Source: Alphaproteobacteria bacterium | GTDB lineage: Bacteria > Pseudomonadota > Alphaproteobacteria > Geminicoccales > Geminicoccaceae | DNA length: 52,367 nt | Direction: 5' to 3' | NCBI GenBank assembly: GCA_027045875.1 | Contig: JALUAG010000054.1 | Coordinates: 1-52,367 of the forward strand | Shown: positions 24,016 through 38,589 of the stretch, piece by piece | How positions within the stretch are numbered: position 1 is the first letter of the stretch | Layout: the number at the start of each line of letters is the position of its first letter | Program-made: the position numbers and the translations under genes | Notes under the pieces: model-generated | The model's input: the letters and a program-made list of their open reading frames with translations, nothing else | Databases searched by the model: none | Told to the model about the DNA's origin: nothing

Positions 24016-24659
24016 GCGCCGAGCTCGCGGGCGAGCTCCTCAAGAAAGCGATGGACGAAGGCCAGCCGTGCCTCGGCGAGGCGGCGGCCGGTGGCGGTGC
24101 GCATCAGGCCCGGAAGCTTCTCGAGCTTGGTCCTCACATGGTCGAGGGCGAAGGCGACGTCGTCGAGCGGGCGCCGCTCGGCGAAGGGATCGTCGGGATG
24201 GAGCAGCCGCCGCCCCATCCGCCCGCTGACCGCGAACAGGCGCGCGAGGCCGATGGCGCCCAGGCTCTCGAGCCGGTCCGCGTCCTGCAGGATCTCGGCC
24301 TCGCGCGAGCGCGGGGGGATGCCCGCCGAATAGCTGTGGGCCTCGATGACGTGGCGCACCGCCTCCAGCCGATCCTCGGGAAAGTCCATGCCGCGCAGCA
24401 GCGTGACCGCCTCGGCCGCGGAGCGGCGGGAGGCCTCGGCGCGCTCGGGCGAGTCCTTGGGCGTGTTGACGAGGTCGTGGAGATAGGATCCCGCCAGCAG
24501 CACCAGCATGTCGGCGTCGGGCGCCTCGGCCGCGGCGAGCTCGCGGGCGAGCGTCCAGACGCGCCGGAAATGGCCGAGATCGTGCGAGGGATCGCCGTCC
24601 TCGCGGGCCGCCACCGCCCGCTCGAAGCGGTCCCGCCAGACCGCGAGCGGATCGCTCAT
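24012..24659 (-). CDS. HD-domain phosphohydrolase-like protein
   Basis: Encodes 215 residues starting at the ATG at 24659, which overlaps the gpsA stop (ATGA). The metal-binding pattern of the HD superfamily is present: H26 and H30 in SHDLGHF, H61-D62 in YLHDLVN, H in RHVIEAHSYS and D in ILQDADRLESLGAIG. The overall layout matches the YedJ/DUF-type HD hydrolases that act on nucleotides or related phosphate esters. Substrate is unknown. Strict translational coupling to glycerol-3-phosphate dehydrogenase is the only context clue. Alternative upstream frames (to 24818) read into gpsA and are not credible. Confidence 0.85.
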   Translation of the reverse strand: MSDPLAVWRDRFERAVAAREDGDPSHDLGHFRRVWTLARELAAAEAPDADMLVLLAGSYLHDLVNTPKDSPERAEASRRSAAEAVTLLRGMDFPEDRLEAVRHVIEAHSYSAGIPPRSREAEILQDADRLESLGAIGLARLFAVSGRMGRRLLHPDDPFAERRPLDDVAFALDHVRTKLEKLPGLMRTATGRRLAEARLAFVHRFLEELARELGA

Positions 24660-25642
24660 TCGCTCGCCGCCGGCGGCCGCGAGAGCAGGGCCGCGACGGC
24701 CTCGCTCACGGACCAGTCGCCTTCGACGATGCGTGCCACCGCCTCGCTGACCGGCAGCTCGACTCCCTTCTCGGCCGCCATCTCGCAGGCGGCGCGGGCG
24801 GTCCACACGCCTTCGCACAGCGGTGCGCCGCTTCCCGTGAGGCTGTCGAGGGGCGCACCGCAGCCCAGTTCGAAGCCGAAACGGGTGTTGCGGGAGGTGA
24901 GGCTGGTGGCGGTGAGCACGAGATCGCCCATTCCGGACAGGCCGGCCAGGGTCTCGCGGCGGGCACCGAGCGCCATCCCGAGGCGCGTGATCTCGGCGAG
25001 ACCGCGGGTGATCAGCGCCGCCCGCGCGTTCTCACCGTATCCCCGACCCATCACGATACCGGCGGCGATGGCGACGACGTTCTTGAGGGCGCCGGCGATC
25101 TCGACGCCGACCAGATCGTCGCAGGGATAGAGGCGGAAGCTCGAGCTGCCCAGCTCCTCCGCCAGCTCACGGGCGAGCGCGATGGCCGGCGCCGCCACCG
25201 TCAGCGCGGTCGGCAACCCGCGCGCCACCTCGCTCGCGAAGGAGGGACCGGAAAGCACCGCGGGCGTGCAGTCGGGACATTCCTCGGCCAGCACCTCGCT
25301 GAGGCGACGGTGGCTCGTCCGCTCGAGACCCTTGGCACAGACCACGAGCACGCGGCCGCGATGCTCGATCCCCCACACCGTTTCGCGCAGCTTCTGGGCA
25401 GGTACCGCCAGCAGCAGGATGCGGCAGGCGTCGAGCGCGAGCAGATCGGCGGTGAAGCGGATCGAGGGGTGGAGCAGGATGCCCGGCAGATACCGGCCGT
25501 TGACGCGGCTGCGGGCGATACGGGCCATCGCCGCGCCGTCGCGCCCCCAGAGAACGACTTCATGGCCGCTGCGCGCCAGGACCTGGGCGAGCGCCGTTCC
25601 CCAACTGCCGCTTCCGACGATACCGATCGCTGGCTCTGCCAT
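24656..25642 (-). CDS. gpsA: GpsA, glycerol-3-phosphate dehydrogenase [NAD(P)+]
   Basis: Encodes 328 residues from the ATG at 25642. The nucleotide-binding motif GIVGSGSWGTALAQ begins 5 residues in, confirming this start over the longer frame. VVCAKGLER, VLSGPSFASEVARGLPTALTVA, ALKNVVAIAAGIVMGRGYGENARAALITRGLAEI and LAGLSGMGDLVLTATS are all family blocks, with catalytic Lys in ALKN. It reduces dihydroxyacetone phosphate to sn-glycerol 3-phosphate for phospholipid synthesis in the cytoplasm. Length fits the family. The HD gene follows by a 4-nt overlap. Confidence 0.96.
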   Translation of the reverse strand: MAEPAIGIVGSGSWGTALAQVLARSGHEVVLWGRDGAAMARIARSRVNGRYLPGILLHPSIRFTADLLALDACRILLLAVPAQKLRETVWGIEHRGRVLVVCAKGLERTSHRRLSEVLAEECPDCTPAVLSGPSFASEVARGLPTALTVAAPAIALARELAEELGSSSFRLYPCDDLVGVEIAGALKNVVAIAAGIVMGRGYGENARAALITRGLAEITRLGMALGARRETLAGLSGMGDLVLTATSLTSRNTRFGFELGCGAPLDSLTGSGAPLCEGVWTARAACEMAAEKGVELPVSEAVARIVEGDWSVSEAVAALLSRPPAASE

Positions 25643-25743
25643 GGCCCCGTTTCGGTAACATAGTCGACCGGCCTTTTGTACCGCGGATCCCGCCAAGGGC
25701 CAGTGTCACGAATGCCGCGCCGGCACACCCCGGGATATGACGG

Positions 25744-26802
25744 TCAGGCCGCGCGGGCGCGGCGGGCGGCAGCGAGGATCTCACGCGCCATGGCGTCGGC
25801 GACGCGGTGGGTGGGCTCGTCCCGCCGTGCGGCCCGGGTGAAGACCTCGGCCAGCCGCTCGCCGATCACCCCGAGCCGGTCCAGGGCCCGCTCGCGCCGG
25901 TAGCCTTCGGGATGCAGCTCCTCGGCGATGTTGATCACTCCGCCGGCATTGATCACATAGTCCGGAGCGTAGAGGATCCGCCGCTCGTGCAGCCCGTCGC
26001 CGTGGCGCGGCGCGGCGAGCTGGTTGTTGGCGGCGCCGGCGATCACCGCACAGCGCAGCCGCGGCAGGCTGTGATCGTCGATCACCCCGCCGAGGGCGCA
26101 GGGGGCCAGCACCTCGCAGGGCACGGAGAGGATCTCGGTCCCGTCCACCACCCGGGCGCCGAACCGCCGGGCCGCCTCCTCGCTGCGGGCGGGGTCGAGA
26201 TCGGCCACCACCAGCCGCGCCCCTTCCTCGGCCAGCAGGCCGGCGAGGCTCATGCCGACGTGACCGAGCCCCTGGACGGCCACCGTGATCCCTTGCAGCC
26301 GGTCGCGGCCGAGCCGGTGGCGCACCGCCACCCGGATGCCCAGGAGCACGCCACGGGCGGTCATCGGCGAGGGATCGCCGCTGCCGCCCTCGCTGCGGCC
26401 GAGGACGTAGCGGGTGACGCCGCCGGCGATGTCCATGTCGGCGGGCGCGGTGCCGACGTCCTCGCCGGTGTAGTAGCGGCCGGCCAGGCTCTCCACCGCC
26501 CGGCCGAAGGCGCGCAGCAGCGCGGGCGACTTGTCGCGGCGCGGATCGCCGATGACGACGCTCTTGCCGCCGCCGAAGGCGAGGCCGGCCATCGCCGTCT
26601 TGTAGGTCATGCCGCGGGAGAGACGGAGCACGTCGGCGAGCGCCTCGGCATCGCTCGCATAGGGCCACATGCGACAGCCACCGATGGCCGGGCCGAGCGT
26701 GGTGTCGTGCAGGGCGACGATGGCCCGCAGACCGCTTTCCCGATGGTGGAGGAAATGCACTTCCTCGTGGCCGTCGAACTCCGCGTGCGAGAAGAGATCC
26801 AT
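25744..26802 (-). CDS. Leu/Val/Phe/Glu-family amino acid dehydrogenase
   Basis: Encodes 352 residues from the ATG at 26802, chosen because the family begins MDLFSHAEFDGHEEV; longer frames add unrelated residues. The catalytic region TYKTAMAGLAFGGGKSVVIGDP contains both Lys residues of the family. YYTGEDVGTAPADMDI is the substrate loop, and the Rossmann motif is VQGLGHVGMSLAGLL. ALGGVIDDHSLPRLRCAVIAGAANNQLA follows. It oxidatively deaminates a branched-chain or aromatic amino acid with NAD. Leucine dehydrogenase is the usual label in this group, but the choice among Leu, Val and Phe cannot be made by eye. Confidence 0.92.
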   Translation of the reverse strand: MDLFSHAEFDGHEEVHFLHHRESGLRAIVALHDTTLGPAIGGCRMWPYASDAEALADVLRLSRGMTYKTAMAGLAFGGGKSVVIGDPRRDKSPALLRAFGRAVESLAGRYYTGEDVGTAPADMDIAGGVTRYVLGRSEGGSGDPSPMTARGVLLGIRVAVRHRLGRDRLQGITVAVQGLGHVGMSLAGLLAEEGARLVVADLDPARSEEAARRFGARVVDGTEILSVPCEVLAPCALGGVIDDHSLPRLRCAVIAGAANNQLAAPRHGDGLHERRILYAPDYVINAGGVINIAEELHPEGYRRERALDRLGVIGERLAEVFTRAARRDEPTHRVADAMAREILAAARRARAA

Positions 26803-27050
26803 GGCGGGTTCCCCGGTTCGGACGCGATGGATGTCGCGCGTTATTCTACACGCTCCGAAGAGGAACATGCTTGCCGAGCGAGGCCGCGCTGCGAAATTGC
26901 CGAAAGCATCCACCCGGATGCACGCCGTTCGCGAAACGTCCTTGCGGAAGCTGCCACCCTCTTCGAACGACCGTCCGGCGGGATCATGGCAACCGGAAGT
27001 TAACGCTCGGTAAACTTGCCCCCGTCGTCGGCGGGTGGTGGCGCGGGTAC
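26803..27050. other. Intergenic region between ccmI and the amino acid dehydrogenase
   Basis: I see no gene, tRNA-like fold or repeat in these 248 nt. It must hold the dehydrogenase promoter, and GGGGAA at about 26809-26814 on the minus strand is a weak ribosome site. The segment 26995-27018 (GAAGTTAACGCTCGGTAAAC) is locally AT-richer. Confidence 0.3.
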
Positions 27051-28676
27051 TCAGGAATCGAGGGCGTCGAGCTGCTTCTTGACTTCCTCGTACTGGGGGG
27101 TCTCGGCCGGCAGCATGGAAAGGAGCCGCTCCCAGAGCTCCCGCGCCCGTGCGGCGTCACCGCGCTGGGCGGCGGCGAGGCCGAGATAGAACAGCGCGTC
27201 GGGCTGGTCGGTGTCGAGGTTCCGCACCGTCTCGAAGGCGGCGACCACCTGCTCGGGGAGCGGATCCTCGGCGGGCACCGTCTCGAGGAGCGCCAGCGCG
27301 TAGTCGAGCTGGGCCTCGACGTCCTCGGGCAGCTTGCGGGCGAGGGTACCGTAGACTTCGGCCGCCTCCTCGCGCCGTCCCAGCACCCGATAGGAGCGGG
27401 CCAGCATGCGCCAGCCCTCGATGTCGTCGGGCTGCCGTTCGAGGCGGGCGGCCAGGCGATCGACCATGCTCGCGATCATCGCCCGCTGCTCCTCGGGACT
27501 CATCCGGGCCGCCGCCGCCACCGCCTCCTGGCCCGGCCCGGAACCGACCCCCGCCGGCGGCTCCTCGAGACCCAGCTCCATCGCCAGGCTGGCGAGCTGC
27601 TCGGTCACGAACGGTGCCTCGGCGAAGATCTCCCGCGCCCGGGCGAGATCGGCGCGTGCCGCCTCCTCCTCGCCGCTCGCCATCCGCAGCCGCACGAGCT
27701 CGATCCAGCCCTGCCAGTCCCCGGGGTTCTCCTCGAGAGCGCGGGCCAGACGCGCCGCCTCCTCGGCGGTGGACAGGGTTCCGACCTCGGCGAGAAGCGG
27801 CTCCACGTCGACATCGAGCTCCTCCGCCACCGCCCGGATGCGGCTGCGGAGCTGGGGCAGCCAGGGCGCATCGCTCGTCGAATCGCGGCCGAGTTCGAGA
27901 TAGGCCGACAGCGCCTTGTCGAACTCGCCGGCCTGCTCGTAGGAGAGGCCGATGTAGAAGCGTGCGCGGGGATCGCGGGGATTGCGCTCGAACTCGCGTT
28001 CGAAGGCCTCCTTGGCGGCGGGGGTCACCATGCCCTGGGCGGCCAGGGTCAGGGCTTCGCCCAGCGCACCCGCCACACCGGGCAGCTGGGGCGAGAGAGC
28101 CTCCGCCCGCTGATAGGCGCGGGCGGCCTCGGCGTAGCGGCCGAGCACGATGTTGGAACGCGCCAGCATCAGCCAGCCGTCGACGTCCTCGGGCTGTTCG
28201 GCGAGCCGCTTTTCCAGCCGCGCCACCATTTCCTCGACGTTGGGCAGGCTGTCCTCCTCGCCCCCGGCCATCCGCACCTCGCGGCCGGGCAGATCGCCGC
28301 GCGAGGCGAGGGGCATGTCGGGGAGATCGGGCCGGCCGAGATAGAGGTACAGGGCGACGCTGGCGATGGGCACGAGGAGCGCCGAGACGATGGCCACCGA
28401 GCGCAGCGGCCGCACCTCCCGTCCCTCCTCCTTTTCGCTCTCGCCGGCGATGGCGAGCATCCGCCGCTTGATCTCGGTTTCCGCCGCCTTCGCCGCCCGG
28501 TCGTCGACCAGTCCCAGCTCGCGGTCGCGTTCCAGCTCCTCGAGTTGGGCCCGACAGACGGCAAGTTCGGCCTCGATCCGCCCGAGCCTCTGCCGCCGCC
28601 GCCAGACGGGCCAGGCGAGAAGGATGGTCGTCAGCAGTGCCAGTGCCGAATACGCCGCGATCTGCCAGGCCTGCAT
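27051..28676 (-). CDS. ccmI: CcmI, cytochrome c maturation TPR protein, with duplicated TPR region
   Basis: Encodes 541 residues from the ATG at 28676. The N-terminal architecture is diagnostic: membrane helix (about 6-24), a cytoplasmic-loop coiled coil with RIEAELAVCRAQLEELERDRELGLVDD and EIKRRMLA, a second helix (about 88-110), then periplasmic TPRs. Two blocks are related: MVARLEKRLAEQPEDVDGWLMLARSNIVLGRYAEA (about 150-185) and MVDRLAARLERQPDDIEGWRMLARSYRVLGRREEA (about 410-445). Each is followed by more TPR helices. Usual CcmI proteins carry one such block and are near 400 residues. CcmI chaperones apocytochrome c to the CcmFH haem ligase. Other ccm genes are not visible in the window. 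Confidence 0.9.
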   Translation of the reverse strand: MQAWQIAAYSALALLTTILLAWPVWRRRQRLGRIEAELAVCRAQLEELERDRELGLVDDRAAKAAETEIKRRMLAIAGESEKEEGREVRPLRSVAIVSALLVPIASVALYLYLGRPDLPDMPLASRGDLPGREVRMAGGEEDSLPNVEEMVARLEKRLAEQPEDVDGWLMLARSNIVLGRYAEAARAYQRAEALSPQLPGVAGALGEALTLAAQGMVTPAAKEAFEREFERNPRDPRARFYIGLSYEQAGEFDKALSAYLELGRDSTSDAPWLPQLRSRIRAVAEELDVDVEPLLAEVGTLSTAEEAARLARALEENPGDWQGWIELVRLRMASGEEEAARADLARAREIFAEAPFVTEQLASLAMELGLEEPPAGVGSGPGQEAVAAAARMSPEEQRAMIASMVDRLAARLERQPDDIEGWRMLARSYRVLGRREEAAEVYGTLARKLPEDVEAQLDYALALLETVPAEDPLPEQVVAAFETVRNLDTDQPDALFYLGLAAAQRGDAARARELWERLLSMLPAETPQYEEVKKQLDALDS

Positions 28677-28919
28677 GCCATTATCCCCGCGTTTGGACGG
28701 GGTTCTATTTGGCGCCGGCGCGGCCTGCGGCAAGCGACGCCGTGTCGCGCGCTCTCCCGCCGCGGCCGGAATGCCCCACCAGCGGGCCGATCCGCGGCCG
28801 TTTTCCCGGTTTTCGGAGGAAGATGCTGGATCTTCGTGAAGAAGGTTTCATCTTTCGGTCATCTTTCCGCAAATCGCGGGGCGCGAGCCGTCGCACCCGC
28901 GGGGCTGGGGAGGCCGGCG
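28677..28919. other. Divergent intergenic region between ccmI and the cupin gene
   Basis: 243 nt with promoters expected in both directions. It contains a less GC-rich stretch at about 28835-28875 (GAAGAAGGTTTCATCTTTCGGTCATC). No gene is apparent. Confidence 0.3.
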
Positions 28920-29471
28920 ATGGCGACGCACGAACGGCCGGCGGTGCGGCCGGTGGAGCCGGAGGTGGTCCGGCTGGCATACGACGAACGCCTGCCCGAC
29001 AATCCGCTGCTGCCGGTCCTCGTCTACCGGGGGGTACTGGATCCCGCAGCCGGCGAGCCCGCCGCCGCCTTCGCGGCGCTGTTCGCGGCCCACGGCTGGG
29101 GCGGCATCTGGCGCAACGGCATCTTCGCCTTTCCGCACTATCACGGCACCGCCCACGAGGCGCTGGGGGTCGCCCGCGGCCGGGTGCGGCTGCGCCTCGG
29201 TGGCGTGCGCGACATCCGCCTCGAGGCCCGGGCCGGCGATGCGCTGGTGCTGCCCGCCGGCACCAGCCACCAGAACCTCGGATCGAGTCCCGATCTCCTG
29301 GTGATCGGCGCCTATCCGCCGGGCCAGGACTGGGATCTCATGTACGGTCGGCCGGAGGAACGGGAGACGGCCCGTGTCCGCATCGCCCGCGTCCCGCTGC
29401 CGCCGACCGACCCGCTGTTCGGCGGCGACGGGCCGCTCCCGCGCCTTTGGGGCGGGGGCGCCGTCAGTTGA
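28920..29471 (+). CDS. Cupin-domain protein, YjlB-like
   Basis: Encodes 183 residues from the ATG at 28920, with GGGGAGG 6 nt before it (28907-28913). The double-stranded beta-helix cupin fold is visible as WRNGIFAFPHYHGTAHEALGVARGRVRLRLGG, which holds the metal His/His/Glu cluster (H..H...E), and then GDALVLPAGTSHQNLGSSPDLLVIGAYPPGQDWDLMYG with the second-motif His. This order and the PPGQ.WDL ending match YjlB-type cupins, whose biochemical role is unknown. There is no signal peptide, so it is cytoplasmic. Its 3' end overlaps the convergent patatin gene by 8 nt. Confidence 0.85.
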   Translation: MATHERPAVRPVEPEVVRLAYDERLPDNPLLPVLVYRGVLDPAAGEPAAAFAALFAAHGWGGIWRNGIFAFPHYHGTAHEALGVARGRVRLRLGGVRDIRLEARAGDALVLPAGTSHQNLGSSPDLLVIGAYPPGQDWDLMYGRPEERETARVRIARVPLPPTDPLFGGDGPLPRLWGGGAVS

Positions 29472-30555
29472 GATCCACCACCGCGACCCCCTCGGGTGGC
29501 CGCGGTGGCCGTCCGCGTTCGCGCAGGCCCCGGCGCATGTCCTCGTAGCCGGCCCGCCAGTGCTCCTCGACGGACAGGCGCGAAAAATCGAAGTCCTTGG
29601 AACCGCTCTGGTATTCCCGGGGCCGGTAGGTGACGCGCAGGAGGGTCGCCGGCCGGTCGCAGCGCAGCGCCGCGAAGGCCGCGAGCTCCGGGCGGGCGCG
29701 CAGCTCCGCCGGCAGCAGATCCAGGAGCCGGCCGATGCGGTGCCGCAGCGCCCGCGTCTCGCAGGCCAGACGGTCGGCGAGCTGGCTGCGGCTCGCGAAG
29801 CGGATGTCCTTGGCCCGCTCGTCGACGTCGAAGATGGTCCGCGGCATCGGCCCCTCGGCGCGCCAGAGATCGACCTGGAAGAGCTCCATCGCCTCGTCGC
29901 CCGCCTCCTCGAAGACGTAGGTGACGGGCGTGTTGGAGAGGATGCCGCCGTCCCAGTAGGCCTCGCCCTCGATCTCCACCGGCGGGAAGGCCGGCGGCAG
30001 GGCGGCGCTGGCCATCACATGCTCCGGCCCGAGGCGCTCGCGTGCGCTGTCGAAATAGTGGAGGGCGCCGCTCCGCACGTTGACGGTGCCCAGGCTGAGA
30101 CGGATGGTGCCGGCGGCGAGGCGGTCGAAATCCACGAGCTCCTCGAGGCTGCGCCGCAGCGGTGCGGGATCGTACCAGCCGAGGGCCTGCTCGCTGCCCG
30201 CCGGCCAGAAGGGGGGCGGCGGCAGATGGGGGGTGAAGAAGCCCGGAAGGCCGAAGGCGAGGGCCATGAAGGCGCCGGTCTCGCCGAACACCGCCCGCGC
30301 ATCGTCACCGGGCACGAGCGGCTTGCCGGGCAGGCTCGACGAGATCCGTTCCCAGAAGGCGCGCAGCCGCGCGACCCGGCGCTCCGGCGGATTGCCTGCG
30401 ATCAGCGCGCCGTTGATGGCGCCGATGGAAATGCCGGCGATCCAGTCGGGCACCACCTCCGCCTCGGCCAGGGCCTCGAAGGCGCCGGCCTGGTAGGCGC
30501 CGAGCGCACCGCCGCCCTGGAGCAGGAGGACCCGCCGCATCTCGTTCGCGTTCAC
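29464..30555 (-). CDS. Patatin-like phospholipase with DUF3734 C-terminal region
   Basis: Encodes 363 residues from the GTG at 30555. The GTG overlaps the stop of the MaoC gene (GTGA), and GGGAGGGG precedes it with suitable spacing. A later ATG at 30540 is an alternative. The oxyanion hole is LQGGGALGAYQAG, the nucleophile elbow GISIG has S43, and the dyad Asp is D202 in YWDGGILSNTP. The C-terminus (about 295-350), with ATLLRVTYRPREYQSGSKDFDFSR, matches the DUF3734 region of this subgroup. Family members hydrolyse lipid acyl esters; links to polyhydroxyalkanoate metabolism are known for some. Here it closes an operon of AtuA-like, MaoC and patatin genes. Confidence 0.9.
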   Translation of the reverse strand: MNANEMRRVLLLQGGGALGAYQAGAFEALAEAEVVPDWIAGISIGAINGALIAGNPPERRVARLRAFWERISSSLPGKPLVPGDDARAVFGETGAFMALAFGLPGFFTPHLPPPPFWPAGSEQALGWYDPAPLRRSLEELVDFDRLAAGTIRLSLGTVNVRSGALHYFDSARERLGPEHVMASAALPPAFPPVEIEGEAYWDGGILSNTPVTYVFEEAGDEAMELFQVDLWRAEGPMPRTIFDVDERAKDIRFASRSQLADRLACETRALRHRIGRLLDLLPAELRARPELAAFAALRCDRPATLLRVTYRPREYQSGSKDFDFSRLSVEEHWRAGYEDMRRGLRERGRPPRPPEGVAVVDLN

Positions 30556-31634
30556 CCGGTCCCCTCCCGGGCCGCCCCGCTGCCGCGGCGCGGCATGAGC
30601 CCCCAGTAGTCGAAATCGAGCAGCACCTCGGGGAGATAGCGTCCCTCGTCGTCCCTCAGAGGAAAATCGGCGGCGGGACGGTTCTTCACCGCCACCAGAC
30701 GCAAGCGCAGGGCACCGAGGTCCGGGCGCCCCGGCAGTTCCGCCTTCTCCAGCACTTCCGACCAGGCGTAGATCGTATCCCCGGCCACGCAGGGGTTGGC
30801 GTGGGTGCCGGCGTTGATCGCCAGGATGTGGAGCATGTTGCCGAGGCCGTTGAAGGAGAGGGCGCGGGCGATCGAGATCACCACCCCGCCGTAGACGATG
30901 CAGGCGCCGAGCCGCCCCTGGCGCTCGATATGGTCGTTGAAATGGACCCGGGCGGTGTTCTGGTAGAGGCGGGTGGCGAGCCGGTGCTCGCTTTCCCGGA
31001 CGCCCATGCCGTTCACATGGTCGATCCGCTCCCCCGGCTCGTAGTCCTCGAAGAACCAGGGCGCGCCGGTGACCGCGGGATCGACGGCGACCGGCCCGAG
31101 CCCGGGAGGCGGCGCCAGTGCCTGTGCGGGCACCGCGGCGGCGAGGGACGGCGTGCAGGCCACCTCGCTCCGCCGTTCGGGATCGCGCTTGCGCACCAGC
31201 ACCCAACGCACATACTCCAGTATCGGCCGTCCCTCCTGCTTGAAGCCGCGGGTGCGCACCCAGACGATCCCGGCCCGACCGTTCGAGGTCTCCCGCAGGC
31301 CGATCACCTCCGAGGTCGCGGTCAGGGTGTCGCCCGGGTAGACGAGATCGAGGAAGCGTCCCTCCGCGTAGCCGAGGTTGGCGATGGCGTTGAGGGAGAC
31401 GTCGGGCACCGAGCGGCCGAACACCAGATGGAAGGTCAGCAGGTCCTCGACCGGCATCGCCGGCAGCCCGTTCGCGCGGGCGAAGGGGGCGCTCGAGTGC
31501 TGGGCGAAGCGCGAGCCGGTGAGGGCCAGATAGAGGGCGGCATCGCCCTCGGTGACGGTGCGCGGCGGCGCGTGCCGGAGCTCCTCGCCGAGGGCGAAAT
31601 CCTCGAAGAAGCGGCCGGTCCGTGTCTTGCGCAT
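30552..31634 (-). CDS. MaoC-family double hot-dog hydratase, mesaconyl-CoA hydratase-like
   Basis: Encodes 360 residues with two hot-dog domains. The first (about 5-150) begins RFFEDFALGEELRHAPPRTVTEGDAALYLALTG and contains FGRSVPDVSLNAIANLGYAEGRF. The second (about 190-345) has WFFEDYEPGERIDHVNGMGVRESEHRLATRLYQNTARVHFND. This two-domain pattern and length match the mesaconyl-CoA (2-methylfumaryl-CoA) hydratases of the ethylmalonyl-CoA pathway and their relatives. The operon context (AtuA-like proteins upstream, patatin downstream) is not that of the ethylmalonyl-CoA pathway, so the substrate may be a different branched unsaturated acyl-CoA. Cytoplasmic. Confidence 0.85.
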   Translation of the reverse strand: MRKTRTGRFFEDFALGEELRHAPPRTVTEGDAALYLALTGSRFAQHSSAPFARANGLPAMPVEDLLTFHLVFGRSVPDVSLNAIANLGYAEGRFLDLVYPGDTLTATSEVIGLRETSNGRAGIVWVRTRGFKQEGRPILEYVRWVLVRKRDPERRSEVACTPSLAAAVPAQALAPPPGLGPVAVDPAVTGAPWFFEDYEPGERIDHVNGMGVRESEHRLATRLYQNTARVHFNDHIERQGRLGACIVYGGVVISIARALSFNGLGNMLHILAINAGTHANPCVAGDTIYAWSEVLEKAELPGRPDLGALRLRLVAVKNRPAADFPLRDDEGRYLPEVLLDFDYWGLMPRRGSGAAREGTG

Positions 31635-31732
31635 GACTCCCCCGAAGCCCGGTCCGCAGGCTGCCTAGCGCAGCCCGTGCTGCACCGCAAACACGACGAC
31701 GCTCGCGGCACCCCGCCGGCCTTCCTCGACCA

Positions 31733-32077
31733 TCACCGAACGCGGGTCTTCGAGGGTGGATCGAGCTCGATCTTGAGGCGCAGGATCAGGTAGCTCCAGG
31801 ACTTGCCGTGACCGTCGAGATTGAGGGAGCGGTTGACGCCGCCCTCGAGGGCCTCCCGCATGACGATGTTGAGACCCAGGAGATGCGGCAGCGCGTGGAT
31901 CTCGACCGCACCCCGCACGAGGCGCGGGAACGCCGCGCGGATGCGCTCCGGGGTGAGCTCGCGCCGCACGGCCGCGTAATGGGCGGGATCCTCGACCCAG
32001 ACCGAGACGTTCGAGACGTCGCCCTTGTCGCCGGCGCGGGCGTGGGCGATGTCGTAGAGACGCACCCTCCGGCTCAT
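31733..32077 (-). CDS. AtuA-related C-terminal (ferredoxin-fold) protein
   Basis: Encodes 114 residues from the ATG at 32077, overlapping the AtuA-like gene's stop by ATGA. YDIAHARAGDKGDVSNVSVWV is the strong hallmark of the small domain found at the C-terminus of AtuA or as a separate partner subunit. ALPHLLGLNIVMREALEGGVNRSLNLDGHGKSWSYLILRLKI finishes the fold. It presumably forms a complex with the 456-residue AtuA-like protein. A 98-nt gap precedes the MaoC gene. Confidence 0.88.
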   Translation of the reverse strand: MSRRVRLYDIAHARAGDKGDVSNVSVWVEDPAHYAAVRRELTPERIRAAFPRLVRGAVEIHALPHLLGLNIVMREALEGGVNRSLNLDGHGKSWSYLILRLKIELDPPSKTRVR

Positions 32078-33444
32078 GCCTCGAGCACCTCCACGCGGGC
32101 GTGCACCGCGTCGCGGGCGACGAAGCTCGAGGCGGTGGTGACGCTCTCGACGATGCGGCCGCGAAAACCGCCGCCGCCGGCCGGCCCGCAGGTGAGGATG
32201 GCCTCGGTCTCCCAGAGGACGAGTTCCGCTTCCTCCCGCTCGCGGGTGCGGCAGGCGACCCGGAGACGCACGTCCTCGGTGCGCACCGGGCCCACCCCGG
32301 CGGTGCCGTGCAGGGAATCGACGCCGATCAGATCGAAGCGCAGGGGACAGCGCAGCCCGTGGATGCCCAGCAGACGCTCGCGCAGGATCTCGCGGGCGAG
32401 CTCGGCCCGGGCCACGGCGTTGATGCCGGCATAGGACACCCCCGCCTCGCCGAGCCAGCCGCCGTCGAAGGCGAGGGTCACCTTGAGCCGCTCGGGGCGC
32501 GGCCTTCCCCGCGCGCCCGCCACGCGCACCCGGTCGCGACCCACCTCCTCGACGGTGACCCGGGAGAAATCGGCGATGACGTCGGGGGTGACGTAGGCGG
32601 TCGGGTCGTGCACCTCGTAGAGAAGCTGCTCCTTCACCGTCGCTGCGGAGACGCGTCCGCCGGCGCTCGCGAGCTTGGTGACGACGGCCTCGCCGTCGGG
32701 CCCCACCTCGGCCAGCGGATAGCCGCAGCGGGCGAGATCGGGCACCTCCTTGCGACCGGGATCGGCGAAATAGCCGCCCGTGACCTGCATCCCGCATTCG
32801 AGCAGGTGCCCGACCAGGGTGCCGGCGGCCAGCCGCTCCCAGTCGTGGGCTTCCCAGCCGAAGTGCAGCACCAGCGGGGCCAGGAACAGCGAGGGATCGG
32901 CGACGCGGCCGGTGAGCACCACGTCGGCGCCGGTGAGCAGCGCCGGCAGCAGGTGTTCGATGCCGAGATAGGCGTTGGCGGCCAGGAGCGCGCCCTCCGC
33001 CTCGCCCACCGTGCCGCCTTCGAGGAGGGGAGTGTCGCGATCCACGATGTCTGTGACCTCGTCCCCTTCGAGCCAGGCCACGGTGAGACCCGCCAGCCCG
33101 AGCTCGCGGGCGATGGCGATCGTGCGTTCGGCGGCCGCCGCCGGGTTGGCCACTCCCATGTCGGAGAGGAGGCGGGTGCCGTGGCGGCGGCAGAGTGGCA
33201 GGAGCGCCCGCATCCGCGCCGCGAGACGCGGATTGTAGCCGGCACTGGGATCGCGCCGGCGGTCGCGATGACCGAAGGCCATGGTACGCTCGCCGATGCA
33301 TTCCAGCACCAGCCAGTCGAGGCGGCCCTCGGCCAAGAGATCGACCGCCGGACCGAGCCGGTCGCTCGAGAAGCCGGCTCCGCAGCCGATGCGGAGGACC
33401 CGCCCCGGTCGTTCCCCACCCTCCAGACGGCGCAGCGCTTCCAA
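32074..33444 (-). CDS. AtuA-family protein (DUF1446, acyclic terpene utilisation-like)
   Basis: Encodes 456 residues from a TTG at 33444; no ATG or GTG gives a full-length protein. RVLRIGCGAGFSSDRLGPAVDLLAEGRLDWLVLECIGERTMAF is the family N-terminal signature. Further blocks are GYNPRLAARMRALLPLC, LTGRVADPSLFLAPLVLHFGW, AGTLVGHLLECGMQVTGGYFADPG and ATVKEQLLYEVHDPTAYVTPDVIADFS. AtuA is needed for citronellol/geranyl-CoA catabolism in pseudomonads, but its reaction is unknown and relatives occur in many catabolic loci. Here the full-length gene is split into this part and the small partner at 31733-32077. It is divergent from the TRAP transporter. Confidence 0.87.
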   Translation of the reverse strand: MEALRRLEGGERPGRVLRIGCGAGFSSDRLGPAVDLLAEGRLDWLVLECIGERTMAFGHRDRRRDPSAGYNPRLAARMRALLPLCRRHGTRLLSDMGVANPAAAAERTIAIARELGLAGLTVAWLEGDEVTDIVDRDTPLLEGGTVGEAEGALLAANAYLGIEHLLPALLTGADVVLTGRVADPSLFLAPLVLHFGWEAHDWERLAAGTLVGHLLECGMQVTGGYFADPGRKEVPDLARCGYPLAEVGPDGEAVVTKLASAGGRVSAATVKEQLLYEVHDPTAYVTPDVIADFSRVTVEEVGRDRVRVAGARGRPRPERLKVTLAFDGGWLGEAGVSYAGINAVARAELAREILRERLLGIHGLRCPLRFDLIGVDSLHGTAGVGPVRTEDVRLRVACRTREREEAELVLWETEAILTCGPAGGGGFRGRIVESVTTASSFVARDAVHARVEVLEA

Positions 33445-33639
33445 GACCCCCGTTCCCGTCGTTTCGCCGCCCCATCCTCGGCCGGCGGGGCGTTCGTGTC
33501 GAGGGTGCGGTGCCGCCGCCCCCGAAACGGTTTTGCCAATCGGTGCCCGAGCCTCTAGAAAGGCGACAGAGCGACGGTCGGATCACCGGGGGCGCATGCT
33601 CCGATCGCGCGACTGCTACAGGGAGTGGAGGAAGCCACC
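33445..33639. promoter_or_regulatory. Divergent control region of the AtuA-like operon and TRAP transporter
   Basis: 195 nt separate the two starts. The dctP side ends in GTGGAGGAAGCCACCATG with a good GGAGG. No regulator gene lies next to it, and I could not identify a clear operator. The arrangement implies coordinated control of uptake and catabolism. Confidence 0.4.
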
Positions 33640-34644
33640 ATGCGCAAGCTGAGCCGTCGACTGTTCCTTTCCGTGGCCTTCGTCGGTGCGATGATGGCCG
33701 GCATGGCGGACGCCGGGGCCGAGATCGTCATCAAGTTCAGCCATGTCGTCTCCCCCAAGAACCATCCGAAGGGGCTCGCCGCCCAAGCCTTCGCCGACTG
33801 CGTCAACGGCAAGGAGAGCCTGAAGGGCAAGGCGCGGGTCGAGGTCTATCCCAACTCGCAGCTCTACAACGACAACAAGGTGCTCGAGGCCTTGCTCCTG
33901 GGCGACGTGCAGATGGCCGCGCCCTCGCTCTCCAAGTTCGAGCGCTTCACCCTGAAATACCGGGTGTTCGATCTGCCGTTCCTGTTCGAGGATCTCGACG
34001 CCGTTCTCCGCTTCATGAAGAGCGAACAGGGACGCGAGCTCCTGCGGGCGATGGAGGACAAGGGGCTCGTCGGGCTCGACTACTGGATCAACGGCATGAA
34101 GCAGCTGTCCGCCAACCGGCCGCTGCTGACCCCCGAGGACGCCAAGGGGCTCAAGTTCCGCATCCAGCAGTCCGACGTCCTGCAGGCGCAGTTCGAGACG
34201 CTGGGCGCGGTGCCGCAGAAGATGGCCTTCGCCGAGGTCTACGGGGCCCTCCAGCAGGGGGTGGTGGACGGTCAGGAGAACACCTGGACCAACATCTACA
34301 CCAAGAAGTTCTACGAGGTGCAGGACGGCATCACCGAATCGAACCACGGCATCATCTCCTACCTGGTGGTCACCAGCAAGGAGTTCTGGGAGGGGCTTCC
34401 CGACGACGTCCGCAAGGAGGTCCGCGCCTGCCTCGACGAGGCCACCGAGCTCGCCAATTCCACCGCCGAGCGCCTCAATCAGGAATCGAAGCAGAAGATC
34501 ATCGAATCCGGCGTCGAGGTGCGCGAGCTCACGCCCGAGCAGCGGCAGGCCTGGATCGATGCCATGAAGCCGGTCTGGGACAAGTTCAAGGACGACATCG
34601 GCGAGGACGTCATCCAGGCCGCGCTCGCCGCCAACCGGAAGTAA
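33640..34644 (+). CDS. dctP: TRAP transporter solute-binding protein, DctP family
   Basis: Encodes 334 residues from the ATG at 33640 (GGAGG 8 nt before). The signal peptide is MRKLSRRLFLSVAFVGAMM with cleavage near MADAGA. The mature protein begins EIVIKFSHVVSPKNHPKGLAAQAFAD, the classical DctP opening, then NSQLYNDNKVLEALLLGDVQMAAPS. LKFRIQQSDVLQAQFETLGAVPQKMAF holds the Arg that clamps the substrate carboxylate, followed by EVYGALQQGVVDGQENTWTNIYTKKFYEVQ. It binds a carboxylate in the periplasm and delivers it to the DctQM permease. Resemblance is to the C4-dicarboxylate (malate/succinate/fumarate) branch, but the locus suggests a catabolic substrate. The first gene of a dctPQM operon. Confidence 0.95.
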   Translation: MRKLSRRLFLSVAFVGAMMAGMADAGAEIVIKFSHVVSPKNHPKGLAAQAFADCVNGKESLKGKARVEVYPNSQLYNDNKVLEALLLGDVQMAAPSLSKFERFTLKYRVFDLPFLFEDLDAVLRFMKSEQGRELLRAMEDKGLVGLDYWINGMKQLSANRPLLTPEDAKGLKFRIQQSDVLQAQFETLGAVPQKMAFAEVYGALQQGVVDGQENTWTNIYTKKFYEVQDGITESNHGIISYLVVTSKEFWEGLPDDVRKEVRACLDEATELANSTAERLNQESKQKIIESGVEVRELTPEQRQAWIDAMKPVWDKFKDDIGEDVIQAALAANRK

Positions 34645-34717
34645 CCGCGTCTCGGGCCGCCGGCGGTACCCGCCGCCGGTGGCCCCCGCCCGGAGCAGGA
34701 AGACGGGGAACGGCGCC

Positions 34718-35287
34718 ATGGCCGGGCAGTCGGGCTTGCGGCGTTTCGTCGAGACCCTCGAGGAAAGCATCATCGCCTTCATCTTCGCGGTGATGGTGCT
34801 GGTCACCTTCTCCCAGGTGGTGGCCCGTTACGTGTTCAACGCGGGCGCGGTCTGGGCCCTCGAGCTCACCACCTTCGCCTTCGCCTGGCTGGTGCTGATC
34901 GGCGTTTCCTACGGCATCCGCCGCTCGGCCCACATCGGGGTGGACGCCTTCGTGCGCCTGTTCCCGAATCCGGTGCAGCGCTTCTTCGGGCTCGTCACGG
35001 TGGGCGCCGGGCTTCTCTACGCCGGCATCATCTTGACCGGCGCCTTCGAATATGTCGGCAAACTCTACAAGATCGGCATCGGCGCGGTCGACCTGCCGAT
35101 CCCGCGCTGGATCCCCTACAGCGTCCTCGTCCTCAGCATGGTGCTGATGATCCTGCGGCTGCTCGAGGCCGGGTGGCAGATCCTGCGCGGCGAGCGCCGC
35201 AACCTGCTGGCCGACGAGGCACGCGACACCATCCGGGAGATCCTGGGCAGGGAAGAGGGGCCGACGGGACCGGAGAGGGACCGCTGA
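34718..35287 (+). CDS. dctQ: TRAP transporter small permease, DctQ family
   Basis: Encodes 189 residues from the ATG at 34718 with GGGGAA upstream. There are four hydrophobic helices at about 20-40, 55-75, 95-115 and 135-155. The motif ARYVFNAGAVWALELTTFAFAWLVLIGVSYGIRRSAHIGVD is characteristic of DctQ. The C-terminal 35 residues are charged and cytoplasmic. It pairs with the large permease DctM (start 1 nt after its stop) in the inner membrane. Confidence 0.95.
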   Translation: MAGQSGLRRFVETLEESIIAFIFAVMVLVTFSQVVARYVFNAGAVWALELTTFAFAWLVLIGVSYGIRRSAHIGVDAFVRLFPNPVQRFFGLVTVGAGLLYAGIILTGAFEYVGKLYKIGIGAVDLPIPRWIPYSVLVLSMVLMILRLLEAGWQILRGERRNLLADEARDTIREILGREEGPTGPERDR

Positions 35288-35288
35288 C

Positions 35289-36836
35289 ATGGCCATCGCC
35301 AGCCTCTTCGTCACCCTCTTCGTCCTGCTGCTGATCGGTACGCCGATCGCCGTCGCGCTCGGGCTGTCGAGCGCGATCACCATCCTCTTCTTCTCCGACG
35401 ACAGCCTCGCCTCCATCGCCCTCAAGCTGTTCGAGACGATGGAGCACTACACGCTGCTCGCCATCCCCTTCTTCATCCTGGCCTCGGCCTTCCTCACCAC
35501 CGGCGGGGTGGCGCGGCGGCTGATCGATTTCGCGATCTCCAGCGTCGGCCATTTCCGCGGCGGCCTCGCCATGGCCGGTGTGCTCGCCTGCATGCTGTTC
35601 GCCGCCGTGTCCGGCTCCTCGCCGGCCACCGTGGTGGCCATCGGCTCGATCGCCATCGCCGGCATGGTGCGGGCCGGCTACAGCCTCGACTTCGCCGCCG
35701 GGGTGATCGCCAATGCCGGCACCCTCGGCATCCTCATCCCGCCCTCCATCGTGATGGTGGTCTACGCCGCCGCCACCGACCAGTCGGTGGGACGGCTGTT
35801 CATGGCCGGCATCATCCCCGGCGTGCTCGCGGGGCTGCTGCTGATGGGCGGCATCTACCTGCGCGCGCGCCATCTCGATCTGCCCCGCCTGCCCAGGACG
35901 GGCTGGCTCGAATGGCTCGGCCATCTCGGCGAATCGATCTGGGGGCTGCTGCTCATCTTCATCATCATGGGCGGCATCTACGGCGGCATCTTCACTCCCA
36001 CCGAGGCGGCCGCCGTGTCCTCCGTCTACGCCTTCCTGATCGCCTGCTTCGTCTATCGCGACATGGGGCCACTCAAGGATACCGAGCCCGCCCCCACCAC
36101 CCACGGGGTGGCCCTCGTGCTGGTGGTGGGAGTGCTGGTGTTCGGGTTCGGCCTCGCGAGCGGGACCTTCGACCCGGTCGGCAGCCTACCGGGGATCGCG
36201 CTCCTGGCGCTCCTCGCCCTCCTTTATGTTGTGCTGGCGCCCAAACGCGGGGTGGCGCGGCCGGTCGCGGCGCTCCTGCGCTCGGTCCGCGAGCTGCTCG
36301 TCCATCTGCCCGCCGCCTTCCTCCACCGCGACACCCGCCACGTGATGCTGGAGGCGGGCCGCACAACCATCATGCTGCTGTTCATCATCGCCAACGCGAT
36401 GCTGTTCGCCCATGTGCTGACCACCGAGCGCATTCCCCACACCATCACCCAGTGGATCATCGAGAGCGGCTTCGAGTGGTGGTCCTATCTGATCATCGTC
36501 AACATCCTGCTGCTGATCGCCGGCAACTTCATGGAACCCTCGGCGATCCTGCTGATCATGGCGCCGATCCTGTTCCCCATCGCGGTGCAGCTCGGCATCG
36601 ACCCGATCCACCTCGGCATCATCATGGTGGTGAACATGGAGATCGGCATGATCACCCCGCCGGTGGGGCTCAATCTCTTCGTCACCTCGGGCATCACCGG
36701 CATGCCGGTGCTGCGGGTGGTGCGGGCGGCGCTGCCCTGGCTCGCCATCCTGCTCATGTTCCTGGTGCTGGTGACCTACATCCCGGTGCTCTCCACCTTC
36801 ATTCCCGACCTCGCCTACGGGCCGCTCACCCCCTAG
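35289..36836 (+). CDS. dctM: TRAP transporter large permease, DctM family, with extra two-helix insertion
   Basis: Encodes 515 residues, versus about 430 usual. Conserved blocks are LLAIPFFILASAFLTTGGVARRLIDFA, CMLFAAVSGSSPATVVAIGSIAI, GTLGILIPPSIVMVVYA, GGIYGGIFTPTEAAAVSSVYA and, late, MEPSAILLIMAPILFPIAVQLGIDPIHLG and MITPPVGLNLFVTSGI. The insertion lies at about residues 263-345, just after FVYRDMGPLK, and contains two hydrophobic stretches (about 273-290, 298-316). Normal family sequence resumes at MLEAGRTTIMLLFIIANAMLFAHVL. Two extra helices would keep the topology. It moves the carboxylate using a sodium gradient. Confidence 0.95.
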   Translation: MAIASLFVTLFVLLLIGTPIAVALGLSSAITILFFSDDSLASIALKLFETMEHYTLLAIPFFILASAFLTTGGVARRLIDFAISSVGHFRGGLAMAGVLACMLFAAVSGSSPATVVAIGSIAIAGMVRAGYSLDFAAGVIANAGTLGILIPPSIVMVVYAAATDQSVGRLFMAGIIPGVLAGLLLMGGIYLRARHLDLPRLPRTGWLEWLGHLGESIWGLLLIFIIMGGIYGGIFTPTEAAAVSSVYAFLIACFVYRDMGPLKDTEPAPTTHGVALVLVVGVLVFGFGLASGTFDPVGSLPGIALLALLALLYVVLAPKRGVARPVAALLRSVRELLVHLPAAFLHRDTRHVMLEAGRTTIMLLFIIANAMLFAHVLTTERIPHTITQWIIESGFEWWSYLIIVNILLLIAGNFMEPSAILLIMAPILFPIAVQLGIDPIHLGIIMVVNMEIGMITPPVGLNLFVTSGITGMPVLRVVRAALPWLAILLMFLVLVTYIPVLSTFIPDLAYGPLTP

Positions 36837-36856
36837 ATACCGGGCGCCGTCTTCCG

Positions 36857-36907
36857 TCGGGCGGCGGTGGCGGCTAAGACTGGCGTCAGCCCCCGTCCGC
36901 CGCCCGA
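36857..36907. terminator. Long inverted repeat between dctM and the antiporter gene
   Basis: TCGGGCGGCGG (36857-36867) is the exact inverse of CCGCCGCCCGA (36897-36907), an 11-bp perfect stem with a 29-nt loop that contains a further GGCT/AGCC pairing. It begins 20 nt after the dctM stop and ends 11 nt before the antiporter ATG. It may terminate dctPQM or occlude the antiporter ribosome site. No T-run follows. Confidence 0.45.
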
Positions 36908-36918
36908 TCGGACCGTCC

Positions 36919-38589
36919 ATGCCCGAAGCGTCCCTTCTCTTCCAGCTCGTGCTCGTGCTGGCCACCGCCCTCGTGCTGGTGGCGGCCTCCCTGCGGGCGG
37001 GACTCGGGGTGGTGGTGGGCTATCTCTTGGCCGGCATGCTGCTCGGCCCCCAGGGGCTGGCGGTGATCGAGGACAGCGCGCTGGTGCGGGTCCTGGCCGA
37101 GTTCGGGGTGGTGTTCCTGCTGTTCGCCATCGGTCTCGAACTGCCGCTCGCGCGCCTGCGCACCATCGGTTTCGCGAGCTTCCTCTTGGGTGGCCTGCAG
37201 ATCGCGGTGACCGCCGCCCTGATCACCGCCGTCGCCCGGTTCATGGGGGCGCCGCCGCGCCTCGCCATCGTGATCGGTCTCGCGCTGTCGCTGTCCTCGA
37301 CCGCGGTCGTGCTGCGTCTCCTGAGCGAACGCGACGGGCTGCGCAGCCGCTACGGCCGCACCGCCTTCGCCATCCTGATGGTCCAGGACGTGGCGGTGGG
37401 GCCGCTGCTGATCACCGTCTTCGCCCTCGGCAGGGGCGAGAACCCGCTGTCCGGCCTCGCCACCACCCTGGTCGCCGGCCTCCTGTTCGTGGTGCCGCTG
37501 GTACTGGGCGGGCGGCGGCTCCTCGAATGGCTCTACCGCCGCGTGGCCGCTTTCGCCCAGCCGGAGCTTCTCGTGGCCCTCAGCCTGCTGGTGGGGATCG
37601 GCTTCGCCTACGCCACATCGACCGCCGGCCTGTCGCTGGGCTTCGGCGGTTTCCTCGCCGGCATGCTGCTCGCCGACACCTCCTTCCGCCATCAGGTGGC
37701 GGCCGACATCGGCCCCTTCCGCGGCCTGCTCGTGGGGCTCTTCTTCCTGACGGTGGGTCTCGGGCTCGAGATCCGGCGGCCGCCCGCCGAATGGCTGGAG
37801 GTGGCGGCGATCGCCCTCGCCCTGCTGCTCGCCAAGGGGGCCGTGGTGGCGGCGCTGACGCGGGCCGGCGGCTTCGGCTGGCCGCTCGCCTGGCGGGTGG
37901 GACTGCTGCTCGCCCAGGGCGGCGAGTTCGCCTTCGTGCTGTTCGCCGCCGCCAGGACCTTCCCCGCCCTCGACCACCCCATCCTCGGCGAGCTCGGTCT
38001 CGCGGTGGCCCTGAGCATGGCGGCGACGCCACTCCTGGTCCACCTCGCCGGCGCCCTGACGCCGCCCGCCCTGCCGCCGGGAGCGGTGCCCGCCACCGGC
38101 GAGCTGCTGGAGGGCGAGGGGCCGCCGGCCGGCCATGTCGTGGTCGCCGGCGCCGGCCCCGCCGGACAGCGGGTCGCCTTCGCCCTCGGGGAAGCCGGCA
38201 TCCCGGTGGTGGGTCTCGACGATTCGGTGGAGCGGGTGGCGCGGGCACGGCGCCGCGGCCTGCCCTTCTTCTTCGGCGAGGTCACCCGTCCCGACATCCT
38301 CGAGGATGTGCACGTCGAGCGCGCCCGGGCGCTCGTGCTGGCCCTCGAGGACCGGCGCTGCGCCTGCCAGGCGGCGGCCCTGCTCGCCTATCTCTTCCCC
38401 GAGCTGCCGGTGCTGGTGCGGGTGGTGGAGGAGGAGGACTGCGAGACCTTCCGCCGACTGGGGGTGACCATGGTGGTGCCGGAGATCGTCGCCACCGGCC
38501 GGGTGCTGGCGGACGCCACCCTGCGCCTGCTCGCCGACCGGCCGGCCGCGCCGCAGCCGGAGACGGCCGTCAGTTCGCCCCCTCGGTGA
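36919..38589 (+). CDS. Kef-type monovalent cation:proton antiporter (CPA2) with TrkA-N domain
   Basis: Encodes 556 residues. About 12-13 hydrophobic helices fill residues 5-390, with CPA2 motifs [77 protein letters not shown] and [17 protein letters not shown]. After a Pro-rich linker comes a Rossmann regulatory domain (from about 410): [30 protein letters not shown]. It exports K+ or Na+ in exchange for H+, gated by nucleotide or glutathione-like ligands in KefB/KefC relatives. The 3' end overlaps the convergent TlpA gene by 20 nt. Confidence 0.93.

Follow-up and report, generated by a model that had tools for sequence, protein, structure and literature searches.

The 52,367 nucleotides of contig JALUAG010000054.1 (GenBank assembly GCA_027045875.1), from an alphaproteobacterium of the family Geminicoccaceae, are referred to here as the window. 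At 29464-36836 they carry seven genes that an earlier, sequence-only reading had combined into a single undescribed catabolic locus: the large and small subunits of an AtuA-type protein (AtuL and AtuS, together AtuLS), a MaoC-type protein, a patatin and the three components of a tripartite ATP-independent periplasmic (TRAP) transporter, DctPQM. All seven were recovered with the same boundaries, each over its Pfam cut-offs. The preferred interpretation, to which a probability of roughly 60% can be assigned, is that AtuL and AtuS are the two subunits of a heterodimeric carbon-carbon lyase with the architecture of the citramalate lyase CmlAB, in a local neighbourhood of mostly known parts. Such an enzyme would release acetate from a hydroxy acid, the reaction and the substrate class both being putative. 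The adjoining MaoC protein would be the genome's mesaconyl-coenzyme A (CoA) hydratase, Mch, hydrating mesaconyl-CoA as part of acetate assimilation by the ethylmalonyl-CoA pathway; the transporter, which flanks AtuLS within the genus, would be a general importer of C4-dicarboxylates, and the patatin an unrelated hydrolase in the same neighbourhood.

The AtuL-AtuS pair

AtuL (33444-32074, minus strand) has 456 amino acids, begins at a TTG codon and matches PF07287 with 463.9 bits, against a cut-off of 22.8. AtuS (32077-31733, minus strand; 114 amino acids) matches PF23544 with 102.1 bits (cut-off 27), and the two genes overlap by four nucleotides (ATGA). The AtuA protein of acyclic terpene utilisation has the same two domains, from which the window version differs in being split over two genes. 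A fused 599-amino-acid protein from a carboxylase cluster in Sagittula carries both domains, which marks the window pair as a split AtuA, with AtuS corresponding, by its domain content, to the C-terminal domain of AtuA as a gene of its own. In L185, too, PF23544 is part of a fused protein rather than a gene of its own. The TTG start of AtuL is plausible because no other ATG, GTG or TTG is in frame from the preceding stop codon to the conserved GAGF motif; the confidence of the AtuL structure model is low over residues 1-13, which bears on this start.

Relatives of AtuL were sought in genome contigs with an 11-row alignment, made up of the window sequence and matches from 10 of the 15 other AtuA-bearing genomes. 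At least 442 relatives were confirmed, and 80 loci were kept. Gene calls in high-GC loci come from a crude homology script and some are wrong; in one locus (L070) no AtuL gene was called. In 79 of the 80 loci AtuS lies directly after AtuL and is read in the same direction, the exception being L050, where the contig ends within AtuL, and the two genes are one constant unit among related loci. The earlier proposal of an AtuA with a small split partner, acting as a two-subunit enzyme, stands on this constancy and on the fused Sagittula protein, and the two proteins presumably bind each other. The window's genome holds a single AtuA match.

Structural relationship to citramalate lyase

Structure models were built on shallow alignments, of 11 rows for AtuL and 20 for AtuS, and reached predicted local distance difference test (pLDDT) scores of 87.6 and 89.3, respectively. 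A single PDB chain matches the AtuL model over its whole length, 9evf_A, entitled 'Citramalate lyase - ADP - pyruvate complex' (ADP, adenosine diphosphate), with a Foldseek E value of 9.7e-23. Structural alignment with this chain (VIA) gave Z 31.9 and a root mean square deviation (rmsd) of 3.6 over 400 aligned residues at 16% identity, while the next entry reached Z 10.5 and matched a single domain. For the AtuS model the top match is 9evf_B (E 3.2e-4, Z 10.3, rmsd 2.6, 101 aligned residues), followed by an entry at E 0.29 and Z 7.6. The best PDB matches of the two models are two chains of the same complex, CmlAB, the identity of which is taken here from PDB titles and molecule names.

AtuL and CmlA are also related by profile comparison (hhalign E 9.6e-7, probability 91, 221 columns) and have the motifs GRxxDP, EC and YExxDP in common; conserved residues of AtuL include R180, D183, E216, C217 and E277. 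The likeness to CmlAB (PDB 9erq and 9evf) thus covers the sizes of the subunits (456 and 105-114 amino acids), the four-nucleotide gene overlap, the predicted folds of both subunits and several conserved motifs of the large one. The differences lie in the low identity of the large subunit and in the small subunit, which has no detectable sequence relation to its counterpart. Sequence proof that AtuS is CmlB was sought with hhalign and not obtained; the agreement between the two is one of predicted fold.

The CmlAB chains are close to ECs_0760 and ECs_0759 of Escherichia coli O157 (970 and 193.5 bits), whose genes are flanked by those for methylaspartate ammonia-lyase and a dicarboxylate symporter, a fumarase gene being next in line. 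In contrast, no methylaspartate-pathway genes were seen among the window genes scanned, which run from 24656 to 38589. The E. coli relative of CmlB belongs to PF14330 (DUF4387) and AtuS to PF23544, so the family of the small subunit differs. PF23544 (AtuS, 31733-32077) and PF14330 (L178:3234-3551) apparently have a common fold and apparently occupy the same small-subunit place in a lyase, with no sequence relation detected between them.

An acetate-lyase role has already been proposed for AtuA, in passages of PMC4847356 and PMC9973270, so the class of reaction is not blank. The statement in the sequence-only reading that the reaction of the AtuA complex is unknown was therefore too strong; the PDB also gives the name citramalate lyase to a distant member of the family. 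Passages of a 2015 paper mention a DUF1446 gene, with no function assigned to it, that lies downstream of mal in E. coli O157, and call the fate of citramalate unclear (PMC4682846). No paper on CmlAB was found, judged by title, among the matches listed in the literature searched, which mostly excludes subscription journals, and none in the same literature joins citramalate lyase to AtuA or acyclic terpene to CitMHS. The steps attributed to an AtuA acetate lyase and to citramalate lyase would, by analogy, be chemically of the same kind, the loss of acetate from a hydroxy acid. AtuLS is probably an acetate-releasing lyase that acts on a small organic acid.

Neighbours of AtuLS in related loci

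An importer gene lies within 5 kilobases (kb) of AtuL in 60 of the 80 loci, including the same-genus locus L019, a count that is biased upward by the choice of queries after such genes had been noticed near AtuL. With the same queries, and in the 51 loci that have both 9.5-kb flanks, importers occur within 5 kb in 41 loci and at 5-10 kb in four. To this extent the expected link between AtuLS and carboxylate importers holds, for queries picked post hoc. The importers are of the citrate-type CitMHS (36 loci), TctC (10), TRAP large permease (10), NMT1-like (6) and MFS (4) types, in overlapping sets. LysR regulators are found within 5 kb of AtuL in 36 of the 80 loci. CoA-type enzymes, sought with nine queries, are near AtuL in seven loci and in none of the 36 CitMHS loci; 18 loci have neither an importer nor a CoA-type enzyme nearby. 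A recurrent locus of LysR, CitMHS, AtuL and AtuS (L048-L098) is present in Burkholderia, Ralstonia, Pseudomonas, Azospirillum and others, with no CoA enzymes detected.

The lack of nearby CoA-type enzymes in all 36 CitMHS loci suggests CoA-independent cleavage of the imported acid in this group. This cannot simply be carried over to the window, because its AtuL falls in a separate group (31 rows, support 99, in a quick tree from which the short L050 and 14 near-duplicate loci were omitted) and because CoA enzymes do occur near AtuL in that group. A CoA-transferase or CoA ligase gene is near AtuL in four of its loci (L041, L043, L046 and L053) and also in L050, which is too short for the tree. 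The enzyme is a family III CoA-transferase in L041, L043, L050 and L053 and a CoA ligase in L046; in L041 genes for an acyl-CoA dehydrogenase and for a small protein of the MaoC fold are likewise near AtuLS. In L041, L043 and L053 the family III CoA-transferase and another type of TRAP transporter adjoin AtuLS, and as settings of a CoA-dependent AtuLS pathway these three loci are better candidates than the window.

Classical citrate and citramalate lyases use an acyl-carrier protein. It may be, as a tentative and broader proposal, that the AtuLS pairs found with LysR regulators and carboxylate importers, and with no CoA enzymes detected, constitute a widespread CoA-independent two-subunit lyase. 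Its substrate would be a tertiary hydroxy acid brought in by the importer and resembling citrate, citramalate or an alkylmalate, which it would split directly into acetate and a keto acid with no need of an acyl-carrier protein; in the genus of the window it would be wired to the ethylmalonyl-CoA pathway.

Another possibility is that AtuLS acts on a CoA thioester, as has been proposed for the classical Atu pathways, with leucine- or terpene-like acids as substrates and with the accompanying enzymes, for example an acyl-CoA carboxylase, encoded elsewhere. There are precedents: on a plasmid of Achromobacter insolitus (L184) a split AtuLS occurs with biotin carboxylase, carboxyltransferase and CoA-transferase genes, and the fused AtuA of Sagittula is accompanied by genes for biotin carboxylase, a carrier protein, carboxyltransferase, acyl-CoA dehydrogenase and enoyl-CoA hydratase. 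However, none of the 80 loci gave a match to two acyl-CoA carboxylase queries within 5 kb of AtuL, and the window AtuL stands outside the group of these Achromobacter and Sagittula copies in the quick tree, which carries a warning since the long branches of those copies meet. Action on a CoA thioester is an unlikely account of the window pair.

As the sequence-only reading had remarked, classical terpene genes do not accompany the cluster: no geranyl-CoA carboxylase-type, acyl-CoA dehydrogenase or enoyl-CoA hydratase gene is among the window neighbours scanned, nor is any acyl-CoA carboxylase gene (biotin carboxylase or carboxyltransferase), for which the remaining genome was not searched. Membership in a classical terpene cluster was considered and rejected, the two queries having found no carboxylase match near AtuL.

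Conservation of the gene cluster

The distribution of the individual genes was compared in 31 genomes of the order, some of them incomplete, at E-value thresholds of 1e-20 for AtuL and MaoC, 1e-60 for DctP and 1e-30 for the patatin. Matches were found for AtuL in 16 genomes, MaoC in 26, DctP in 14 and the patatin in five, and because these distributions differ the parts do not behave as one unit. Homologues of this MaoC protein lie within 5 kb of AtuL in one of the 80 loci, as do those of the patatin, and in both cases the locus is L019. Three genomes of the genus were available, those of the window, of L019 and of G017. The full gene set occurs in two of them and the AtuLS-MaoC-TRAP portion in all three; G017 keeps MaoC and the transporter and gave no match to the patatin, so that one of the three genus genomes lacks a match. 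Among the loci examined, the wider cluster is confined to this genus. The sequence-only reading had named a lack of co-occurrence of these families in other genomes as an outcome that would speak against it, and this is the outcome obtained, the gene set not being seen near AtuL in other genera; the description as a conserved, undescribed catabolic locus is therefore withdrawn. The idea that AtuLS, MaoC and the patatin make up a conserved operon was rejected on the single co-occurrence among the 80 loci and the result in G017.

The model from which that description came joined the genes in one operon, with a branched or aromatic acid imported and converted to an unsaturated acyl-CoA, hydration by MaoC, processing by AtuLS and the patatin as an accessory hydrolase. 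The order of the genes, their overlaps and the common divergent region are consistent with it, and the few related loci with a CoA-transferase, CoA ligase or acyl-CoA dehydrogenase near AtuLS (L041, L043, L046, L050 and L053) show that such companions exist. Nevertheless, the near-absence of this MaoC and patatin beside AtuL elsewhere and the missing patatin match in G017 argue against it, no CoA-activating enzyme is among the seven genes, and the MaoC homologues have other neighbours in relatives. The one-operon model is accordingly quite improbable.

In Bacterium HR40, of another genus in the same family, AtuL-AtuS is followed directly by gpsA, and the MaoC gene adjoins the cytochrome-biogenesis gene CycH on a different contig from AtuL-AtuS. 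In the window the order on the minus strand is AtuL, AtuS, MaoC, patatin, CycH, a leucine-dehydrogenase-like gene and gpsA. This arrangement looks like those two HR40 neighbourhoods joined together, although the change may have gone in either direction.

The MaoC protein as mesaconyl-CoA hydratase

The MaoC gene (31634-30552, minus strand) encodes a protein that matches PF19315 (69.1 bits) and PF01575 (64.4 bits), and it aligns along almost its full length with its best solved relatives, 4e3e (455 bits) and 8hgn, named beta-methylmalyl-CoA dehydratase (434 bits, E 3.2e-129). It is the sole match of its kind in the window's genome and has homologues in most genomes of the order. The same genome encodes crotonyl-CoA carboxylase/reductase (Ccr, TIGR01751) at C106, with 630.6 bits against a cut-off of 378.55, and Ccr is over the cut-off in 25 of the 31 genomes of the order, the window's included. 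For isocitrate lyase, the window's genome gave three partial matches alone, of 43-45 bits.

Outside the genus 23 genomes bear Mch, and the region around it was retrieved for 12 of them. A CitE-like lyase gene lies within about 2.4 kb of Mch in seven of these 12 (L136-L141 and L145), and in five of the seven (L136, L139, L140, L141 and L145) genes for succinate dehydrogenase subunits are nearby as well. A similar arrangement is presumably present in Rhodobacter sphaeroides. In the window's genus, by contrast, Mch adjoins AtuLS. Genes of the ethylmalonyl-CoA pathway are described as typically scattered over the genome in passages of PMC10370305.

Because of the full-length match to 8hgn, the wide distribution in the order, the CitE-like neighbours in relatives, the presence of Ccr and the finding of partial isocitrate lyase matches alone, the MaoC protein is best read as Mch, with a putative role in the ethylmalonyl-CoA pathway. 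The view that it belongs to one catabolic system with AtuLS, as held in the sequence-only reading, gives way to this assignment.

Weighing the interpretation and a possible salvage pathway

Several observations weigh against the interpretation of AtuLS as a CmlAB-like lyase beside Mch. The identity between AtuL and CmlA in the structural alignment is just 16% and hhalign detects no relation between AtuS and CmlB (probability 1.2), so the reaction may differ; 9evf also carries ADP. The MaoC protein is below the NCBIfam cut-offs of RipB/Ich (114.2 of 340 bits) and of haloarchaeal 2-methylfumaryl-CoA hydratase (70.6 of 560), neither of which, by name, models bacterial Mch. Ccr and MaoC do not track exactly, three genomes (G001, G003 and G029) having Ccr over the cut-off and no MaoC match, and the CitE-like protein near Mch does not reach the thresholds set for the named lyase models. 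In addition, MaoC is present in all 16 AtuA-bearing genomes of the order and in 10 of the 15 others, an association with a p value of 0.018 that assumes independent genomes, which these are not. MaoC and the TRAP genes also stand beside AtuLS in each of the three genus genomes. This co-presence and adjacency favour some functional tie.

One form that such a tie could take is a salvage of C5-dicarboxylates at the level of the genus. The TRAP transporter would import mesaconate, methylsuccinate or citramalate that has leaked from the ethylmalonyl-CoA pathway, a class I fumarase would hydrate mesaconate to citramalate, and AtuLS would split citramalate into pyruvate and acetate, the acetate re-entering the pathway that requires Mch. 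The constant flanking of AtuLS by Mch and a C4-dicarboxylate TRAP transporter in the genus agrees with this scheme, and PF05681, the class I fumarase domain, is matched twice in the window's genome, although the fumarase genes are on other contigs and a mesaconase activity for them is conjecture. The predicted fold is that of CmlAB, whose relatives in E. coli O157 adjoin a fumarase and a dicarboxylate symporter, but AtuL is distant from CmlA in sequence. According to passages of PMC9529712, DctA2 of Methylorubrum extorquens is the likely carrier for mesaconate re-uptake, whereas citramalate itself is not re-imported in that organism. With the linkage confined to one genus, salvage of this kind is a doubtful alternative. 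The preferred reading remains that AtuLS is a CmlAB-like lyase among mostly known neighbours.

Transporter and patatin

The transporter genes are read from the plus strand. DctP (33640-34644), the solute receptor of the C4-dicarboxylate type, reaches 357.4 bits with its Pfam model and 280.9 bits with TIGR00787 (cut-off 175.05); the small permease DctQ (34718-35287) reaches 99.4 bits with PF04290, and the large permease DctM (35289-36836) 383.6 bits with PF06808 and 453.1 bits with TIGR00786 (cut-off 268.45). In DctM, of 515 amino acids, the family match is in two stretches, and the protein may carry an insertion in the middle. The best solved chains for DctP are DctP proteins, several of them named C4-dicarboxylate-binding, with 4o94, 9dtl and 9ht3 at 378-392 bits. 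Relatives of 67-86% identity occur in four genomes without an AtuA match (G007, G008, G009 and G015). Since the DctP relatives are of the C4-dicarboxylate type and are present in genomes without AtuA, the importer is read as an ordinary C4-dicarboxylate TRAP transporter, from which it differs in the setting of its genes, divergent from AtuLS. Import of an unusual acid by this transporter was considered and set aside, the nearest solved DctP relatives being of the C4-dicarboxylate kind.

The patatin-like phospholipase (30555-29464, minus strand) combines PF01734 (117 bits) with PF12536, the DUF3734 domain (81.9 bits). Given its sparse occurrence in the order, it would be a hydrolase with no functional tie to the other genes. 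A cupin-like small protein (28917-29471, plus strand) is convergent with it and scores 24.4 bits, just below the Pfam cut-off of 27.2; a similar cupin-like protein is encoded in G017, where the patatin gave no match. Further along, a leucine/tryptophan-dehydrogenase-like protein (25744-26913, minus strand) adjoins CycH and gpsA and reaches 368 bits with the ScyB model, the cut-off of which is 600.

Gene arrangement and intergenic regions

Of the four minus-strand genes said to be tightly linked, what stands is two tightly coupled pairs, AtuL-AtuS and MaoC-patatin, the latter overlapping at GTGA. A single operon is not demonstrated because 98 nucleotides separate AtuS from MaoC. The complete dctPQM set diverges from AtuL across a gap of 195 nucleotides (33445-33639), read directly, a length that agrees with the one first given. 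Scanning of 29300-37000 found no promoter-like site (0.3 expected), hence no sigma-70-like site in the divergent gap, and one terminator-like site, inside the 98-nucleotide gap (1.8 expected over the whole stretch); both counts are at or below chance. Inverted repeats in the divergent gap are weak ones only.

The divergent region is common to both other same-genus genomes, and together with the adjoining gene ends it aligns at 83% mean column identity. Its dctP side is better conserved than its AtuL side, judged by eye. Conservation in the two genomes is strong at 33560-33660, with invariant runs such as GGGGGCGCATGCTCC, and this stretch could be an operator or leader.

Implications

In place of a speculative pathway of seven genes, these results leave a single defined question, the substrate of the split AtuA lyase. 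A short list of candidate acids comes from the resemblance of both subunits to citramalate lyase and from the importers found beside AtuLS in many bacteria. An answer would bear on at least 442 confirmed genome relatives, and 161 plasmid records also hold a relative of AtuL, many of which bear no label other than 'acyclic terpene utilization AtuA family protein'.

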